Assembly: GCF_020551945.1 (NCBI RefSeq)
Contig: NZ_JAJBZH010000005.1
Location: 62,001 to 126,000, forward strand
Reading direction: 5' to 3'
Length of the DNA: 64,000 bases
From: Cellulosimicrobium marinum
GTDB lineage: Bacteria > Actinomycetota > Actinomycetes > Actinomycetales > Cellulomonadaceae
The notes beneath the pieces were generated by a model. It saw nothing but the letters and a program-made list of their open reading frames with translations, did no database searches and was not told where the DNA came from. Positions 22,205 to 54,462 of this stretch are shown here, piece by piece (position 1 is the first letter of the stretch; every line of letters starts with the position of its first letter). Both the position numbers and the translations under genes were made by a program.

Positions 22205-23059
22205 ATGACCGTCGTCGCCGACCCGGCCGGGCCGCAGGCCACGGACCGTGCCGCGCTCGCCCGCGCCGCCCTCCGGCGCGCCGAAGAACGCGCGGGGGTC
22301 CGCCGCCACGACCTGCGCGCCCCCCTCGCCACCGTCCCCGGGCAGGCCCCAGGACGGTCCGTGCCGCAGCCGCCTCCCACCACCCCCCGGCACCGCACCC
22401 TGCCGCCGGCCTCCGGGGCCGACGAGCGGTCGTGGCCCGTGCCCGGCCCGCTCACCGCCCTGCTCCCCACCGGGACGATCCGGCGCGGCACCGTCCTCAC
22501 CGTGCGCGGGTCCACGAGCCTCCTGCTCGCGCTCGTCGCGGGCGCGTCGACCGCCGGGGCGTGGACGACGGCCGTCGGCCTGCCCGACGTCGGGCTGCTC
22601 GCCGCCGCGGACGCCGGCGTCGACCTCGGCCGTCTCGCGCTCGTGCCGCGCCCCGGCCCGGACGCCGCGCTCGCCGTCGCCGCGCTCGTCGACGGCATGG
22701 ACGTCGTGGTCGTCGGCCCCGCCGCCGACCTCACGGACACCGACCGACGCCGCGTCCTCGCCCGCGCGCGCGAGCGCGGCACCGTCCTCGTCGCCGCGAC
22801 CGCGTGGCCCGGGGCCCACGTCGCGCTCACCGTGACGGGCGGCGCGTGGACCGGCGCGGACCACGGAGCGGGCTGGCTGCGCCGCCGGACCCTGCAGGTC
22901 GAGCGCGCGGGCCGCGCGGGCGCGCCGCGCCCCGCCCGGGTCGAGGTCGAGCTGCCGTTCGCCCACCGGGACTGGCCCGCCCACCTCGTCGAGCAGGACG
23001 CCGCCGCGCCCGCCGCCCCGGAGCACCCCGGCACGGACCGGCTGAGGCTCGTCGGATGA
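22205..23059 (+). CDS. imuA': SOS mutagenesis accessory protein ImuA'-like
   Basis: 284 residues. It has the outline of a RecA-like core (strand segments TVLTVRGSTSLLLALVAGAS, AWTTAVGLPDVGLLAAADAG, VDGMDVVVVGPA) but no Walker A. A long Pro-rich N-terminal region precedes the core. This weakly conserved protein is recognised mainly by position: it directly precedes imuB and dnaE2 behind a LexA box, and overlaps imuB by 4 bases (ATGA). ImuA' is thought to work with ImuB to bring DnaE2 to lesions and the beta clamp. GGAGGCGAG is just ahead of the ATG. Confidence 0.85.
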   Translation: MTVVADPAGPQATDRAALARAALRRAEERAGVRRHDLRAPLATVPGQAPGRSVPQPPPTTPRHRTLPPASGADERSWPVPGPLTALLPTGTIRRGTVLTVRGSTSLLLALVAGASTAGAWTTAVGLPDVGLLAAADAGVDLGRLALVPRPGPDAALAVAALVDGMDVVVVGPAADLTDTDRRRVLARARERGTVLVAATAWPGAHVALTVTGGAWTGADHGAGWLRRRTLQVERAGRAGAPRPARVEVELPFAHRDWPAHLVEQDAAAPAAPEHPGTDRLRLVG

Positions 23060-24711
23060 GCGGGCACCCCACCCGCACCGCCGCGCTCTGGGTCCCCGAC
23101 TGGCCCGTCCTCGCGGCGATGGCCGTCCGCGAGATCCCCGCGCACGTGCCCGCCGCGACGCACGACGGACGCCGCGTCGTCGCCGTCTCCGCCACCGCGC
23201 GCGCCGCCGGCGTGCGGCGAGGCATGCGGCGCCGTCGGGCCCGCGAGTGCTGCCCCGAGCTCGAGCTCCTCGACGTCGACGACACGCGCGACGCCCGCGA
23301 GTTCGAGCCCGTGGCCCTCGCCGCCGAGTCCGTCGTCGCCGGCCTCGAGATCACCCGCCCCGGCCTGCTGCTCCTGCCCGCCGACGGCGCGAGCCGCTAC
23401 CACGGCTCCGACGAGTCCCTCGCCCACGCGCTCGTCGCACGCGTCGTGGCACGCACCGGCCACGAGGCCCAGGTGGGGGTCGCCGACGGCATCCTCGCCG
23501 CGGTGCTCGCCGCCCGCACCACCGTCGTCGTCCCCCCGGGGCAGACCCCGGCGTTCCTCGCCCCGCGCCCCACGTCCGACCTCGTGCACGTCGCGACCCG
23601 GCCCGACGTCGCCGTCGCCGTGACCGACCTCGTCCAGCTCCTCGACCGCCTCGGCGTCCGCACCCTCGGCGCGCTCCGCGCCCTCCCGCCCGCGACCGTG
23701 GAAGGCCGGTTCGGCGACCTCGGGGCCTGGGCCCACCGCCTCGCGCGCGGCGAGGACCTGCGCCCGCCCGCCCGACGACGCGTCGAGCCCGACGTCGCGG
23801 TCACCACCGAGCTCGACCCGCCCGCCGAACGGGTCGACGTCGCCACCTTCGCCGCCCGCCGCCTCGCCGAGGACCTGCACGACCAGCTCGTCACCCGCTC
23901 GCTCGTCGCCGGCCGCCTGCGCATCACCGCCCGCACCACCGCCGGGGACGACCTCGACCGGACGTGGCGGCTCGACGCACCCGGCGCGACCAGCCCCGCC
24001 CGCCTCACCGACCGCGTGCGCTGGCAGCTCGAGGGCTGGCTCACCGCGTCGTCGGTCCGGGCGGCCCGCACCGCACGCACCCCGCACGGCACCTCGCCCG
24101 GCGGGCCGCAGACCGTGCCCGACGTCGCACCGCTCACCCGCCTGACCCTCACCGCCGAGGAGGTCGTCCCCGCCGGGGCCGAGCAACCACGCCTCTGGGG
24201 CGCCTCCAGCGGCGAGGACCAGCGCGCCCACCGCGCCCTCGGCCGCGTCCAGGGCATCCTCGGCGGCGACGCCGTGCTGCGCGTCCAGGTCCAGGGCGGA
24301 CGCGACCCCGCCGACCGCGTGCACCTCGTGCCGTTCGGGGAGGACGTCACCCGCCCCCGCGACCCGGACCCGCCATGGCCCGGCGGGCTCCCCAGCCCCG
24401 CACCCGCCCTCGTGCCCGTCGACCCGTACGACGTCACCCTGCTCGACGCCGCCGGGAACCCCGTGGTCGTCGACGCACGCCTCGCGACGAGCGGCGCACC
24501 CGCCACCGTGCGATGCCCCCGCGACGGCGAACCCCCGCCCGGGACCGCGCACGCCGTCGTCGACTGGGCCGGACCCTGGCCCCTCGCCGAACGCTGGTGG
24601 ACCCCCGCACCCCGCCGCCGCGTCCACCTCCAGGTGCTGCTCGACGACGGCCGCGGACTCCTCCTCGCCGGCACCCGAGGCCGCTGGACCGTCGAAGGGG
24701 TCTACGACTGA
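23056..24711 (+). CDS. imuB: ImuB, inactive Y-family polymerase homologue
   Basis: 551 residues. It is aligned with Y-family DNA polymerases (ATARAAGVRRGMRRRRAREC, then GASRYHGSDESLAHALVARV, then the helix-hairpin-helix LGVRTLGALRALPPATVEGRFG). The catalytic acidic triad is missing: the first motif reads RTAALWVPDWPVLAA instead of the usual D-x-D. This is the known property of ImuB, a scaffold joining ImuA', DnaE2 and the sliding clamp. A possible clamp-binding segment lies in the carboxy half (QPRLWG region, about residue 375). It overlaps imuA' by 4 bases and dnaE2 by 1 base. Confidence 0.92.
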   Translation: MSGHPTRTAALWVPDWPVLAAMAVREIPAHVPAATHDGRRVVAVSATARAAGVRRGMRRRRARECCPELELLDVDDTRDAREFEPVALAAESVVAGLEITRPGLLLLPADGASRYHGSDESLAHALVARVVARTGHEAQVGVADGILAAVLAARTTVVVPPGQTPAFLAPRPTSDLVHVATRPDVAVAVTDLVQLLDRLGVRTLGALRALPPATVEGRFGDLGAWAHRLARGEDLRPPARRRVEPDVAVTTELDPPAERVDVATFAARRLAEDLHDQLVTRSLVAGRLRITARTTAGDDLDRTWRLDAPGATSPARLTDRVRWQLEGWLTASSVRAARTARTPHGTSPGGPQTVPDVAPLTRLTLTAEEVVPAGAEQPRLWGASSGEDQRAHRALGRVQGILGGDAVLRVQVQGGRDPADRVHLVPFGEDVTRPRDPDPPWPGGLPSPAPALVPVDPYDVTLLDAAGNPVVVDARLATSGAPATVRCPRDGEPPPGTAHAVVDWAGPWPLAERWWTPAPRRRVHLQVLLDDGRGLLLAGTRGRWTVEGVYD

Positions 24712-27700
24712 TGCCCACCCCCCGGTACGCCGAGCTGCACGCCCACTCCGCGTTCAGCTTCCTCGACGGCGCGTCCCACCCCGAAGAGCTCGCCGCCGAG
24801 GGCGCCCGCCTCGGCCTGACCGCGCTCGCCGTCACCGACCACGACGGCCTCTACGGCGTCGTGCGCTTCGCCGAGGCCGCACGCAAGGTCGGGCTCGACT
24901 CGATCTTCGGCGCCGAGCTCCACCTGCCCGCCCCTGCCCCCTCCGGCGCCCCCGTGCTCGACCCGCCCACCGGCGTCCCCGACCCCCGCTCCACCCACCT
25001 GCTCGTCCTCGCCCGCGGCCCCCAGGGATACCGGAACCTGTCGAGCGCCATCGGCACCGCCCACCTCGCCACCGGCACCAAAGGCGCCGCCGACCACCGC
25101 CTCGACACGCTCGGCGAGCAGGCGGACGGCCAGTGGCTCGTCCTCACCGGCTGCCGCAAGGGCGCCGTGCGCCGCGCGCTCGTCACCACCGGGCGCGACG
25201 CCGCACGCCGCGAGCTCGACCGGCTCGTCGCCACCTTCGGCGCCGACAACGTCGCCGTCGAGATCACCGCCGACGACGACCCCCGCACCGCCGACCTCCA
25301 CGACGCCCTCGCCGCCCTCGCCACCGACGCCCACCTCCCGCTCGTCGCCACCACCGCCGCGCACTACGCCCGCCCCCGCGACGCCGACCTCGCCGGGGCG
25401 CTCGCGGCCGTGCGCGCCCGCTCCTCGCTCGACGACATGGACGGCTGGCTGCCCGGCGCACCCACCGCGCACCTGCGCTCCGCCGCCGAGATGCTCGCGC
25501 GCCACCGGCGGCACCCCGAGGCTGTCGCCACCGCCGCAGCGCTCGGCGACGAGTGCGCGTTCGACCTGCGCCTCGTCGCCCCCGCCCTCCCGCCCTACCC
25601 CGTGCCCGACGGGCACACCGAGGCCACGTGGCTGCGCGAGCTCGTGCGCCGTGGCGCCGAGGACCGCTACGGGCCCCGCGGGAGCGAGCGCGTCCCCGGC
25701 GCGTGGGCGCAGATCGACCACGAGCTGCGCGTCATCGAGGACCTCGGCTTCCCCGGGTACTTCCTCGTCGTGTACGACCTCGTCGAGTTCTGCCGCGTGC
25801 ACGGCATCCTCGCCCAGGGCCGCGGCTCGGCCGCCAACTCCGCCGTCTGCTACGCGCTCGGCATCACCGCCGTCGACGCCGTCCGCCACGGCCTGCTGTT
25901 CGAACGCTTCCTCGCGCCCGAGCGCGACGGCCCGCCCGACATCGACGTCGACATCGAGTCCGCGCGCCGCGAGGAGGTCATCCAGCACGTCTACGGGACG
26001 TTCGGCCGCACGCACGCCGCGCAGGTCGCGAACGTCATCTCCTACCGGCCGAAGTCCGCCGTGCGCGACGCCGCCCGCGCGCTCGGGTACGACGTCGGGC
26101 AGGCCGACGCGTGGAGCAAGTCCATCGAGCGCTGGGGGTCGCTCCGCGGCCCCGACCCGACCTCGCCCGCGGCCGACCGCGCCGCCAAGGAGCGCGACAT
26201 CGCGGCGAAGGTCGTCACGCGGACCGCCGCGAAGGACGCGCGCGTCGCGGCGCTGTGGGGACCGGCGGAGGGGGGCGGTCCGGAGCAGGTGGCGGCTGGG
26301 AGGGAGGTGGGGGTGGCGCGCGCGGCCTCCCCTCCGCGGGCCTCGCCCCTCGGCCCGCTCCCGCCAGACCCGGCCACGGCCGCGCGCGCCACCCCCACCT
26401 CCCCACGCACCGGCACCTTCCGGGGCGGCGCCTCGCGCGACGTCCGCGTCGTCGACCCCCTCGCCGAGGAGGACGGGAGCCGACGCACGGAGAGAGGCCG
26501 GGGGGTGCGGAGCGCCGAGGGCCGTGGTCGGGTCTGGCGGGAGGACCCGAGGCACGAGGGTCCGGATAGTAGGCCCGAGCGCGGTCCGCACCCCCCGGCC
26601 GGACCTGACCGCAGCCGTGGTGCTCAGCCAGGGATCGACGGGGCGCTGCGCGCCGACGACACGCACGACGTCGTGCCCGCGCACCGGCCGCCGTCGGCCG
26701 AGCAGGACGGCGAGATCCCCGGCGAGGTGCTGGACCTCGCGGACCGGATGCTGCGGCTTCCGCGGCACCTCGGGATCCACTCGGGCGGCATGGTCATGTG
26801 CGACCGGCCGGTCATCGAGGTGTGCCCGGTGGAGTGGGCGCGCATGGAGGGGCGCACCGTCCTGCAGTGGGACAAGGAGGACTGCGCCGACGCGGGCCTC
26901 GTGAAGTTCGACCTGCTGGGACTCGGGATGCTCACGGCGCTGCGCATCGGGTTCGGGCTGGTCGAGCGGCACGAGGGGTCGCGCCTGGAGCTGCACACGC
27001 TGCCCGCCGAGGACCCGGCGGTGTACGACCTGCTGTGCGCCGCGGACACCGTCGGGGTGTTCCAGGTGGAGTCGCGCGCGCAGATGGCGACGCTGCCGCG
27101 CCTGCGACCACGGACGTTCTACGACATCGTCGTCGAGGTCGCGCTCATCCGGCCCGGGCCGATCCAGGGCGGGTCCGTGCACCCGTACATCAACCGGGTC
27201 CGGGGGCGGGAGCCGGTGACGTTCCTGCACCCGCTGCTGGAGAAGTCGCTGGGCCGGACGATGGGCGTGCCGCTGTTCCAGGAGCAGCTCATGCAGATGG
27301 CGATCGACGTCGCGGACTTCACGCCCGCGGAGTCGGACCAGCTGCGCCGCGCGATGGGGTCGAAGCGGTCGGTGGAGCGCATGGAGGCGCTGCGCGAGCG
27401 GCTCATGGACGGGATGCGGAAGAAGGGCGTCGACGATGCGCGGGTGCGCGAGCAGATCTACGACAAGCTCAAGGCGTTCGCCGACTTCGGGTTCCCCGAG
27501 TCGCACGCGTACTCGTTCGCGTTCCTCGTGTACGCGAGCTCGTGGCTCAAGGTGCACCACCCGGCGGCGTTCTACGCCGGGCTGCTCGCGGCGCAGCCCA
27601 TGGGGTTCTACTCGCCGCAGTCGCTCGTCGCGGACGCGCGCCGCCACGGCGTCACGGTGCTGCGCCCCGACGTCAACGCGTCCGACGTCGAGGCGACGGT

Positions 27701-28664
27701 CGAGCGGCTGCCCTCGCCCTCGCCTGCGGGAGGGAGCGAGGACCGCGCTCGGGCCTACCCTCCGGACCCTCGTCCCTCGGGTCCTCCCGCCAGACCCGAC
27801 CACGGCCCTCGGCGGTCCCCGCCCCCTCCCGGAGCGAGGCCTCCACGGATCGACACCGCGTTCGGGCCCGAGCCGGACCTCGGGCTCGCGGTGCGGCTGG
27901 GGCTCGCGAGCGTGCGCGGGCTGGGCAAGGACGCGGCGGAGCGGATCGTCGCAGCCCGGGACGCGCCGTCGGACGGTGGGACCGCCCGGCCGTTCCGCGA
28001 CCTGCGCGACCTCGTGCGACGCGTCGACCTCACGACCACCCAGCTCGAAGGGCTCGCCACGGCGGGGGCGACCGACTGCCTGGGGGTGACGCGGCGCGAG
28101 GCGCTGTGGGCCGCGGGCGCGCTGTCCCAGGAAGGGCCGGGCACGCTGCCGGGTGTGAGCGTCGGTGTCGAGGCGCCGCCGCTGCCGGGCATGTCGGACG
28201 TCGAGACGTCCGTCGCCGACGTGTGGGCCACGGGGGTGTCCACCGACTCCTACCCGACGCAGTACGTGCGCGACGGGCTGACGGCGGCGGGGGTGCTCAC
28301 GGTCGCCGGGGCGGTCGAGGTCGCGGACGCGATCGCGGTAGCGGACGACGCCGAGCACGCCGCGGGGGAGGCCCCGGGCACGCGGCCGGGGTCGCGGGTC
28401 GCCGTCGGGGGCGTCGTCACGCACCGGCAGCGGCCCGGCACCGCCGGGGGCGTGACGTTCCTGTCGCTGGAGGACGAGACGGGCATCCTCAACGTCGTGT
28501 GCTCGCCCGGTCTGTGGCGGCGGTTCCGCACCGTCGCGCGGTCGTCCGCGGCCATGGTGGTGCGTGGCCGGCTCGAACGTGCCGACGGCGCGACGAACCT
28601 CGTCGCGGAGCACCTCGCCCCGCTCTCGTTGCAGGTGTCGACGACGTCGCGCGACTTCCGCTGA
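24711..28664 (+). CDS. dnaE2: Error-prone DNA polymerase DnaE2, with in-frame palindromic insertions
   Basis: 1317 residues, about 200 more than usual for DnaE2. The PHP domain begins AELHAHSAFSFLDGASHPEE; the catalytic DID motif is PPDIDVDIES (Asp410, Asp412); LPRHLGIHSGGMV and VEWARMEGRTVLQWDKED are typical of DnaE2; the C-terminal OB fold reads GGVTFLSLEDETGILNVV. The excess length is two low-complexity segments. Residues about 517-664 contain palindromic elements A and B, and about 1001-1048 contain element C. They add no stop codon or frameshift. Since motifs on both sides are intact the enzyme is probably active, copying across lesions after SOS induction. ATG overlaps the imuB stop by one base. 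Confidence 0.95.
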   Translation: MPTPRYAELHAHSAFSFLDGASHPEELAAEGARLGLTALAVTDHDGLYGVVRFAEAARKVGLDSIFGAELHLPAPAPSGAPVLDPPTGVPDPRSTHLLVLARGPQGYRNLSSAIGTAHLATGTKGAADHRLDTLGEQADGQWLVLTGCRKGAVRRALVTTGRDAARRELDRLVATFGADNVAVEITADDDPRTADLHDALAALATDAHLPLVATTAAHYARPRDADLAGALAAVRARSSLDDMDGWLPGAPTAHLRSAAEMLARHRRHPEAVATAAALGDECAFDLRLVAPALPPYPVPDGHTEATWLRELVRRGAEDRYGPRGSERVPGAWAQIDHELRVIEDLGFPGYFLVVYDLVEFCRVHGILAQGRGSAANSAVCYALGITAVDAVRHGLLFERFLAPERDGPPDIDVDIESARREEVIQHVYGTFGRTHAAQVANVISYRPKSAVRDAARALGYDVGQADAWSKSIERWGSLRGPDPTSPAADRAAKERDIAAKVVTRTAAKDARVAALWGPAEGGGPEQVAAGREVGVARAASPPRASPLGPLPPDPATAARATPTSPRTGTFRGGASRDVRVVDPLAEEDGSRRTERGRGVRSAEGRGRVWREDPRHEGPDSRPERGPHPPAGPDRSRGAQPGIDGALRADDTHDVVPAHRPPSAEQDGEIPGEVLDLADRMLRLPRHLGIHSGGMVMCDRPVIEVCPVEWARMEGRTVLQWDKEDCADAGLVKFDLLGLGMLTALRIGFGLVERHEGSRLELHTLPAEDPAVYDLLCAADTVGVFQVESRAQMATLPRLRPRTFYDIVVEVALIRPGPIQGGSVHPYINRVRGREPVTFLHPLLEKSLGRTMGVPLFQEQLMQMAIDVADFTPAESDQLRRAMGSKRSVERMEALRERLMDGMRKKGVDDARVREQIYDKLKAFADFGFPESHAYSFAFLVYASSWLKVHHPAAFYAGLLAAQPMGFYSPQSLVADARRHGVTVLRPDVNASDVEATVERLPSPSPAGGSEDRARAYPPDPRPSGPPARPDHGPRRSPPPPGARPPRIDTAFGPEPDLGLAVRLGLASVRGLGKDAAERIVAARDAPSDGGTARPFRDLRDLVRRVDLTTTQLEGLATAGATDCLGVTRREALWAAGALSQEGPGTLPGVSVGVEAPPLPGMSDVETSVADVWATGVSTDSYPTQYVRDGLTAAGVLTVAGAVEVADAIAVADDAEHAAGEAPGTRPGSRVAVGGVVTHRQRPGTAGGVTFLSLEDETGILNVVCSPGLWRRFRTVARSSAAMVVRGRLERADGATNLVAEHLAPLSLQVSTTSRDFR
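26302..26403 (-). repeat. Palindromic element A (inside dnaE2)
   Basis: Outer arms 26302-26327 and 26378-26403 are perfect 26-base inverted repeats. The 50-base core, read on the minus strand, has the CGGGTCTGGCGGGAG block of the family and an inner 7-bp stem (26336-26342 with 26352-26358) around the loop GAGGGGCGA. The insertion stays in the dnaE2 reading frame. Confidence 0.85.
26496..26600 (+). repeat. Palindromic element B (inside dnaE2)
   Basis: Outer arms 26496-26511 and 26585-26600 pair perfectly over 16 bases, with arm sequence unlike that of A. The core has CGGGTCTGGCGGGAG, an inner 6-bp stem (26543-26548 with 26558-26563) and the loop GAGGCACGA. It lies in the opposite orientation to A and C. 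Confidence 0.88.
27724..27834 (-). repeat. Palindromic element C (inside dnaE2)
   Basis: Arms 27724-27746 and 27812-27834 pair at 20 of 23 positions. Its core, read on the minus strand, is nearly identical to that of B over about 75 bases (four differences), with inner stem 27764-27769/27779-27784 and loop GAGGGACGA. It encodes a Pro/Arg-rich segment of DnaE2. Confidence 0.88.
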
Positions 28665-54184: not shown

Positions 54185-54220
54185 CTGCGGTACTACCCCG
54201 CGACCGGGGTAGTACCGCAG
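54185..54220 (+). terminator. Perfect 15-bp hairpin after the M3 peptidase
   Basis: 54185-54199 pairs perfectly with 54206-54220 around six bases. The arms contain GGTACTACCCC, whose core recurs in the tandem repeats at 54400-54462. No T run follows. Confidence 0.7.
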
Positions 54221-54280
54221 TCCAGGACGAGGCACCGCGGTGCCCTGTGCCCCCGGGACCAGGGTGAGGTGGTGCAGGGA

Positions 54281-54369
54281 GGGCGGGTGGGGGCGCCGCG
54301 TCGTGGTGGGCCTGGCGGGAGCCGCGAGGCACGAGCGGCGGATGGGAGACGCGGCGCCCCCGCCCGCCC
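54281..54369 (+). repeat. Palindromic element D (intergenic)
   Basis: Arms 54281-54302 and 54348-54369 pair at 22 positions with one G-T pair. The core has the GGCCTGGCGGGAG block, inner stem GCCGC/GCGGC (54321-54325, 54335-54339) and the loop GAGGCACGA, identical to that of element B in dnaE2. It lies between the M3 and M20 peptidase genes. Confidence 0.85.
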
Positions 54370-54399
54370 GACACCCAGGGCGACCACGCGACGTCGGGC

Positions 54400-54462
54400 G
54401 ACCGGGGTACTACCTCGCGCACCCGGGGTACTACCTCGCGCGACCGGGGTTTCGCCTCGCGG
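54400..54462 (+). repeat. 21-bp tandem repeat, three copies, upstream of the M20 gene
   Basis: Units at 54400, 54421 and 54442 share CCGGGGTACTACCTCGCG (the third with GTTTCG in place of GTACTAC). They end eight bases before the -10 element of the M20 peptidase gene and could be operator sites or a slippage array. Confidence 0.8.

Follow-up and report, generated by a model that had tools for sequence, protein, structure and literature searches.

The dnaE2 locus

The 64,000-nucleotide stretch of the Cellulosimicrobium marinum genome analysed here (contig NZ_JAJBZH010000005.1, positions 62,001 to 126,000; the window) contains dnaE2, the gene of an error-prone DNA polymerase, and within its reading frame three palindromes, A, B and C (Table 1), each matching a hairpin repeat family that is dispersed through the genome. 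The DnaE2 protein scores above the cut-off of NCBIfam model NF004225 (error-prone DNA polymerase), and its frame shows no break across A, B or C, remaining open throughout its 1317 aa. Together with a fourth copy lying between genes the palindromes measure 91-108 bp (n = 4), the arms of A, B and C being 29, 21 and 20 nt long when up to two mismatches are allowed. B and C represent a variant in which the foot of the stem is asymmetric; over 95 nt they show 91% complementarity, and they make up the top-scoring inverted repeat listed for the window. A preliminary description of this DNA had recognised three in-frame palindromic insertions, the first two in opposite orientation, and both points are borne out, A being antisense and B sense to the gene and all three being found by a model built without them. 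The residue ranges it assigned to them (517-664 and 1001-1048) are here replaced by those of the palindromes proper.

Table 1. Positions of dnaE2 and of the hairpin copies in the window
Feature	Position	Strand	DnaE2 residues	Congeners	E value
dnaE2, error-prone DNA polymerase, host gene	24711-28664	+	1317 aa		
Copy A	26299-26406	-, antisense to dnaE2	~530-566	common to G019	9.2e-7
Copy B	26495-26601	+, sense to dnaE2	~595-631	common to G019	9.2e-8
Copy C	27727-27831	-, antisense to dnaE2	~1006-1041	apparent remnants in G003, G021	4.3e-8
Fourth copy, between genes	54280-54370	+			

Core and stems of the hairpin family

The family is defined by a covariance model (R1) whose 26 source copies include the fourth copy of the window but none of A, B and C; its search of the genome returns 83 copies, A, B and C among them. 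A sequence-only nhmmer model grown from B gave 53 copies in the neighbourhoods fetched first, finding B and C and missing A (54 with A added by hand), and comparison of the A + B stretch with its own genome gave 73 matches, many palindromes being matched on both strands. The core of the element, made up of an internal loop GTGGYGGGTCTGGCGGGA / GGATGGTA and an apical CGAGGAACGAG, is nearly fixed, the near-constant landmarks being the loop GTGGYGGGTCTGGCGGGA, the apical CGAGG(A/G/C)ACGAG and the 3' loop CGGATGGTA. It sits between an inner stem of about 5-7 bp and a long outer stem, both of which are copy-specific yet complementary. The outer stem reaches 16-38 bp (at most two mismatches) in 39 of the 50 parsed copies, while in the other 11 it is shorter, because the stem is broken close to its foot, the sequence runs out or an N adjoins.

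The stems covary. Among the 26 copies 98.4% of cells are paired, with 126 double changes compared to a mean of 35 in shuffles, and pairing drops to 48% of cells or less once partners are slid by 1-3 columns. Across 85 distinct copies (taken from all genomes then fetched, with 20 off-register copies left out and copies shared by descent not independent) 1324 of 1360 stem positions are Watson-Crick, the remainder comprising 21 G.T, 8 A.C and 7 other mismatches. In orthologous stems, 13 comparisons reveal 186 positions without change, 7 at which both partners changed in a compensating way, 10 at which a single change leaves a G-T or Watson-Crick pair, and 5 at which pairing is lost; these 13 were kept from 20 parsed comparisons, those omitted being two at locus L100 (wrong copy), three at L116 and two at L106 (off register or broken), and two further loci could not be parsed. 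We regard the element as a structured hairpin family with a conserved core and rewritten stems, and as a candidate new structured RNA or DNA family. Membership of a known RNA family was considered and set aside, as Rfam searches gave no match near the gathering score over the copies searched, the overlaps being with microRNA-type hairpin models at scores far below theirs.

DnaE2 in other genomes of the genus

DnaE2 is present in all 17 genomes of the genus, and nhmmer (E 0.01) finds no copy in the DnaE2 of 14 of the 16 congeners; the model used had missed A in the window, yet detects the A copy of G019. This congener shares A and B, with similar amino-acid sequence. G020 (C. terreum) carries a separate C-type copy in the A/B linker, which is probably an independent event, and by eye the element is seen in only one (L019, C. 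terreum) of 27 aligned loci (of 80). At site C, G021 has only the outer arms around a tiny loop and G003 keeps only the right part, in both cases in frame (95% identity over the 325 residues searched, G021 being 83% complete). At site A, the left flank is present and the palindrome absent in G004, G005, G009, G012 and G022. These alignments support the view that A, B and C are insertions, with insertion-free relatives and intact flanks, and not domains, which agrees with the preliminary description; the C-site sequences of G021 and G003 are apparently eroded copies. An origin of the arms by inverted target duplication was considered because the arms are copy-specific, and the five congeners keep only the left arm at A; it is disfavoured, other congeners lacking the left arm of A and deletion being simpler.

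Both insert-bearing linkers vary in length across the genus and are short in most relatives. Region 495-690 spans 196 aa in the C. marinum protein; 15 congeners have 81-126 aa there, and G019 has 220 aa. Region 985-1065 spans 81 aa here compared with 33-73 aa in the 16 congeners. The palindromes do lengthen the linkers, but their net excess is smaller than the ~195 added residues first estimated, because the relatives also have linkers at the A/B and C sites.

The preliminary description placed the segments between conserved motifs, and on a DnaE-type structure this is where they fall. In the PDB match 2hpi_A, the Pol III alpha chain of Taq, both inserts are outside the aligned blocks, A and B falling between aligned residues 525 and 540 and C falling between 878 and 884. 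An AlphaFold model (821 residues, 36 sequences) has a mean predicted local distance difference test score (pLDDT) of 62.9. The pLDDT is below 50 at residues 516-656 (save one) and at most of 1006-1047, and, apart from the very start, the two segments contain neither a strand nor a helix of four or more residues.

Upstream of dnaE2 lies a gene (~23056-24711) with weak similarity to Y-family DNA polymerase IV, below the curated cut-offs, whose stop codon overlaps the dnaE2 start codon, an arrangement like that of an ImuB-DnaE2 pair.

Placement in the genome

The surroundings of all 83 copies were inspected, with genes called by a codon-usage script and not taken from annotation. Sixteen copies lie within 14 genes, 24 occupy convergent and 38 tandem spacers, four are found at the edges of contigs, and the status of one is doubtful. 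A further intragenic call (L274) was removed, its frame looking spurious, and the final census does not count two partial tandem copies at L114 that the covariance model did not detect. Only 16 of 83 copies are intragenic though ~89% of the first 320,765 bases examined are called coding. Divergent spacers hold none of the 62 classified intergenic copies (0 of 57 distinct element-bearing spacers), compared to 27 divergent among 66 nearby element-free spacers of at least 100 nt. The gene on the 3' side of the element ends toward it at 49 of the 62 intergenic copies (binomial 5e-6, the copies not being fully independent), whereas the intragenic copies, eight sense and eight antisense, differ from this bias (Fisher 0.03). 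That the bias is seen in spacers and not in coding regions suggests that the intergenic copies are under selection, perhaps in the role of 3'-end hairpins.

At 14 intergenic loci for which orthologs were compared, the adjoining genes are the same and copies are present in some genomes and missing in others; base-precise empty sites for intergenic copies were not found, the spacers being too diverged. In 19 congener copies a hairpin of ~90 nt is nearly identical while its flanks are 62-66% identical, indicating that the hairpins are either constrained or homogenised; these copies, from G009 and other congeners, were picked for equal model scores, and the hairpin identity is partly due to this choice. 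One spacer (L111) carries the element in opposite orientation in G003 (L224), by inversion or independent insertion. The orthologs of L109 in G021 and G003 (L208 and L209) are element-free spacers with a terminator-like hairpin, which contains the arm sequence GGAGGGGCGGC of element copies in the C. marinum genome and in G020. Hairpin copies also lie at the ends of contigs C2, C5, C9 and C12 of assembly G000 (L123, L256, L119 and L276), where the repeats probably break the assembly. Many hairpin copies are flanked by a second dispersed repeat, built of ~21-nt spaced units such as GGTACTACCTCGCGCGACC and often inverted between the two sides; it is located at window positions 54190-54215 and 54400-54445, and at L106, L114, L118 and L125-L132.

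Other host genes

All 16 intragenic copies are in frame, three in DnaE2 and the rest in 13 other, unrelated genes. The copy lies between the phosphoesterase and ligase domains of LigD, ahead of the tudor domain in PcrA/UvrD, between the two domains of both a GntR-aminotransferase regulator and an ABC permease-ATPase fusion, after the HMA domain of a metal P-type ATPase, inside DUF3418 of an HrpA-like helicase, and in the tails of a glycosyltransferase (C-terminal), a LivM-like permease and an MMPL protein; the other hosts are an SDR/FabG-like protein, a redoxin-NHL protein, a biotin carboxylase and an ABC ATPase. Judged by eye, these genes use the DNA of the element in several different frames and from either strand. 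Repair genes (DnaE2, LigD and PcrA) account for three of the 14 hosts as a raw count. Orthologs were compared for seven of the 13 other hosts (23 loci from four genomes, two to four per gene), and for each of the seven at least one ortholog is without a recognisable copy (by eye); the matches to LigD and SDR in G021 are spread over more than one frame, possibly through draft errors.

Some loci merit individual mention. The ABC permease and ATPase are encoded in one frame (L115:1851-4013) with the element in the joint, and the fusion is also found in three orthologs without a clear copy. In the HrpA-like helicase genes of two bacterial families (L278 and L301) copies occur at different places, L278 having in addition an apparent decayed second copy (by eye). 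The redoxin-NHL copy is at the same place in the C. marinum genome and in another genus of the family (L117 and L282), reflecting either an old insertion or a repeated one.

Distribution across the order

Every genome of the genus (17 of 17, C. marinum included) contains the element, in 12-83 copies. A first sample, positive in none of eight genomes from other genera of the family and in one of 14 from other families, suggested a genus-restricted element, an idea dropped once patchy copies were found across the order: 23 of 297 genomes (C. marinum included), in 12 of 95 genera, have matches. These figures are lower bounds: the larger sample was searched under tighter filters, no more than 15 candidates were scored in each genome, and C. 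marinum itself shows only 15 of its 83 copies. Twenty copies fetched from outside the genus all have a recognisable core and different stems (by eye), and the stems of extra-genus copies covary in a model-fitted alignment of 23 matches. Thirteen of these 20 chosen copies are intergenic (eight convergent, five tandem, none divergent), and in all 13 the gene end faces the 3' side of the element. The other seven lie within open frames, by eye again including NHL, P-type ATPase and HrpA-like genes. The family belongs to Cellulosimicrobium and some other Micrococcales.

Relation to known palindromic elements

Rickettsia palindromic elements (RPEs) are placed in frame in protein genes, and RPE-4-type inserts are reported even in the DNA polymerase III alpha chain (PMC10969869, PMC3767692). 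The RPEs and Wolbachia palindromic elements share with the present family the form of ~100-150 bp palindromes in many copies, in frame in unrelated genes. Here the four window palindromes of 91-108 bp and the 83 genome copies correspond to that size and dispersal, and in-frame insertion with absence from some orthologs is seen in DnaE2 and in the seven other hosts compared. The family differs from these elements in belonging to another phylum and in combining a fixed core with copy-specific stems, and the likeness drawn here is one of size, dispersal and placement.

Repetitive extragenic palindromes (REPs) are located downstream of genes in convergent and tandem spacers, and in other bacteria they have also been reported from within the genes of DnaE2, UvrD/REP helicase and DNA ligase (PMC3733652). 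The present family resembles the GTAG/CGTC REPs in sitting behind the ends of genes, in convergent or tandem spacers, with none of its 57 spacers divergent, and in entering the same three kinds of repair gene. It differs in its outer stems, which are 16-38 bp in 39 of 50 copies and not the 6-13 bp of most GTAG REPs or the 8-9 bp of CGTC REPs (PMC3733652), and in lacking the terminal GTAG or CGTC tag; GTAG lies within the 3' internal loop in 25 of 50 parsed copies, and not at a terminus. PF01797, the domain of the REP-associated tyrosine transposase (RAYT; Y1_Tnp/IS200), has no match in the C. marinum genome, a control being positive in five of 14 named genomes. Compared with miniature inverted-repeat transposable elements (MITEs), the arms differ between copies and no target-site duplication is readable in the diverged spacers, the transposon search having covered PF01797 only. 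In Nematomorpha mitochondria palindromes in coding genes have both arms encoding conserved protein (PMC6649704); palindromes are tolerated in translated genes there as here, but the segment here is dispensable in congeners.

Actinobacteria are absent from the phyla listed in PMC3733652, and 'actinobacteri' does not occur in its main text. A REP survey (PMC12306157) tabulates predicted REPs in Actinomycetota genomes, its main text being without the word 'intragenic'. No description of the present repeat family was recognised in the literature searched, which consisted mostly of titles and listings with little from subscription journals. The novelty first claimed for insertion into an actinobacterial DnaE2 was partly overstated, as REPs in DnaE2, UvrD and ligase genes are already published (PMC3733652). 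The phenomenon is known, even in DnaE2, whereas this element family, and its occurrence in actinobacteria, seem not to have been described.

Interpretation

We interpret A, B and C, with a probability of about 85%, as copies of a dispersed REP/RPE-like hairpin family that have been tolerated in DnaE2 linkers and eroded again. The interpretation builds on the family itself and its covariation, on in-frame placement, on presence and absence in relatives, and on position outside the conserved blocks. Dispersed hairpins would persist mainly downstream of stop codons, and the intragenic survivors would be copies, for the most part in linkers or tails, that do not interrupt the frame. Those in DnaE2 occupy two linkers whose length varies across the genus, and would later be eroded or lost by in-frame deletion. 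We infer that the element is mobile and has a mobilising agent, that change at the remnants has run towards loss, and that the segments are translated and neutral for the polymerase.

Several points weigh against this interpretation. No transposase was identified in the C. marinum genome, PF01797 being the only domain searched, and target-site duplications could not be made out. In five congeners at A and in two at C, the remnants could be pre-insertion sequence and not deletion scars. The ortholog comparison covered eight of the 14 host genes, DnaE2 included. In the AlphaFold model conserved stretches (fragment residues 41-82 and 354-402) also have a pLDDT below 50, so the model is weak support for disordered inserts and cannot serve as proof of disorder; the insertion reading does not rest on it. 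Finally, the orientation preference between genes (49 of 62) and the conservation of the core in other families point to a function beyond passive hitch-hiking.

Such a function is central to the most substantial of the alternatives, which we consider a genuine possibility though not the probable one: that the intergenic copies are functional structured 3'-end RNAs, acting in termination, processing or stability and also mobile, the intragenic copies being misplaced and silenced by translation. The avoidance of divergent spacers (0 of 57, against 27 of 66 element-free neighbours), the gene ends facing the element (49 of 62, and 13 of 13 in other genera, against 8:8 within genes), the core kept across families while the stems covary, and the excess of G.T over A.C mismatches (21 to 8) all argue for it. 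Genomes differ widely, however, in copy number (12 to 83), orthologous spacers hold the element only patchily, and the almost purely Watson-Crick stems (1324 of 1360) fit upkeep at the DNA level equally well; moreover, the neighbouring transcript is the complement of the G.T-richer strand, so that two hints disagree, and insertions upstream of genes may simply be purged. The classical alternative, in which REPs or MITEs would owe their movement to a RAYT or a known transposase, matches the observed placement downstream of genes, in convergent and tandem spacers and within repair genes (PMC3733652), but is unlikely given the long outer stems (39 of 50), the copy-specific arms and the missing terminal tag; a RAYT-driven REP was rejected on the negative PF01797 search of the C. 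marinum genome, which covered this one transposase domain.

That the inserts tune the mutator activity of DnaE2, as first proposed, seems improbable. Three copies in one gene, and the presence of repair genes among the hosts here (DnaE2, LigD, PcrA) as among those of REPs elsewhere (PMC3733652), would suit such a role, but the segments are absent, eroded or separately placed in most congeners, linkers of many lengths occur, and the same repeat enters 13 other unrelated genes. More improbable still is the view of the three segments as genuine domains, or as conserved loops, of the DnaE2 protein in this clade. G019 does have A and B as well, and their amino-acid sequence there is similar, but conserved segments would then be expected in all relatives, and 14 of 16 congeners have no recognisable copy; insertion-free congeners contradict this reading, and in unrelated genes the same DNA serves (by eye) in several frames and in both orientations.

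The hairpin family interpretation extends the palindromes in protein genes known from Rickettsia and from REPs to a G+C-rich actinobacterial genus and an apparently unrelated element, and its conserved core and rewritten stems make it a candidate new structured RNA or DNA family. More tentatively, it may be an undescribed element of Micrococcales, an oriented 3'-end RNA/DNA hairpin that also spreads in frame into the linkers of repair and multidomain proteins and so acts as a natural linker generator. With 16 intragenic cases, and full, eroded and absent copies in congeners, the birth and loss of protein linkers become traceable, linkers that would be born from selfish or regulatory DNA. The recurrence of DnaE2, UvrD/PcrA and ligase genes as hosts makes it a testable question why repair genes accept such inserts.

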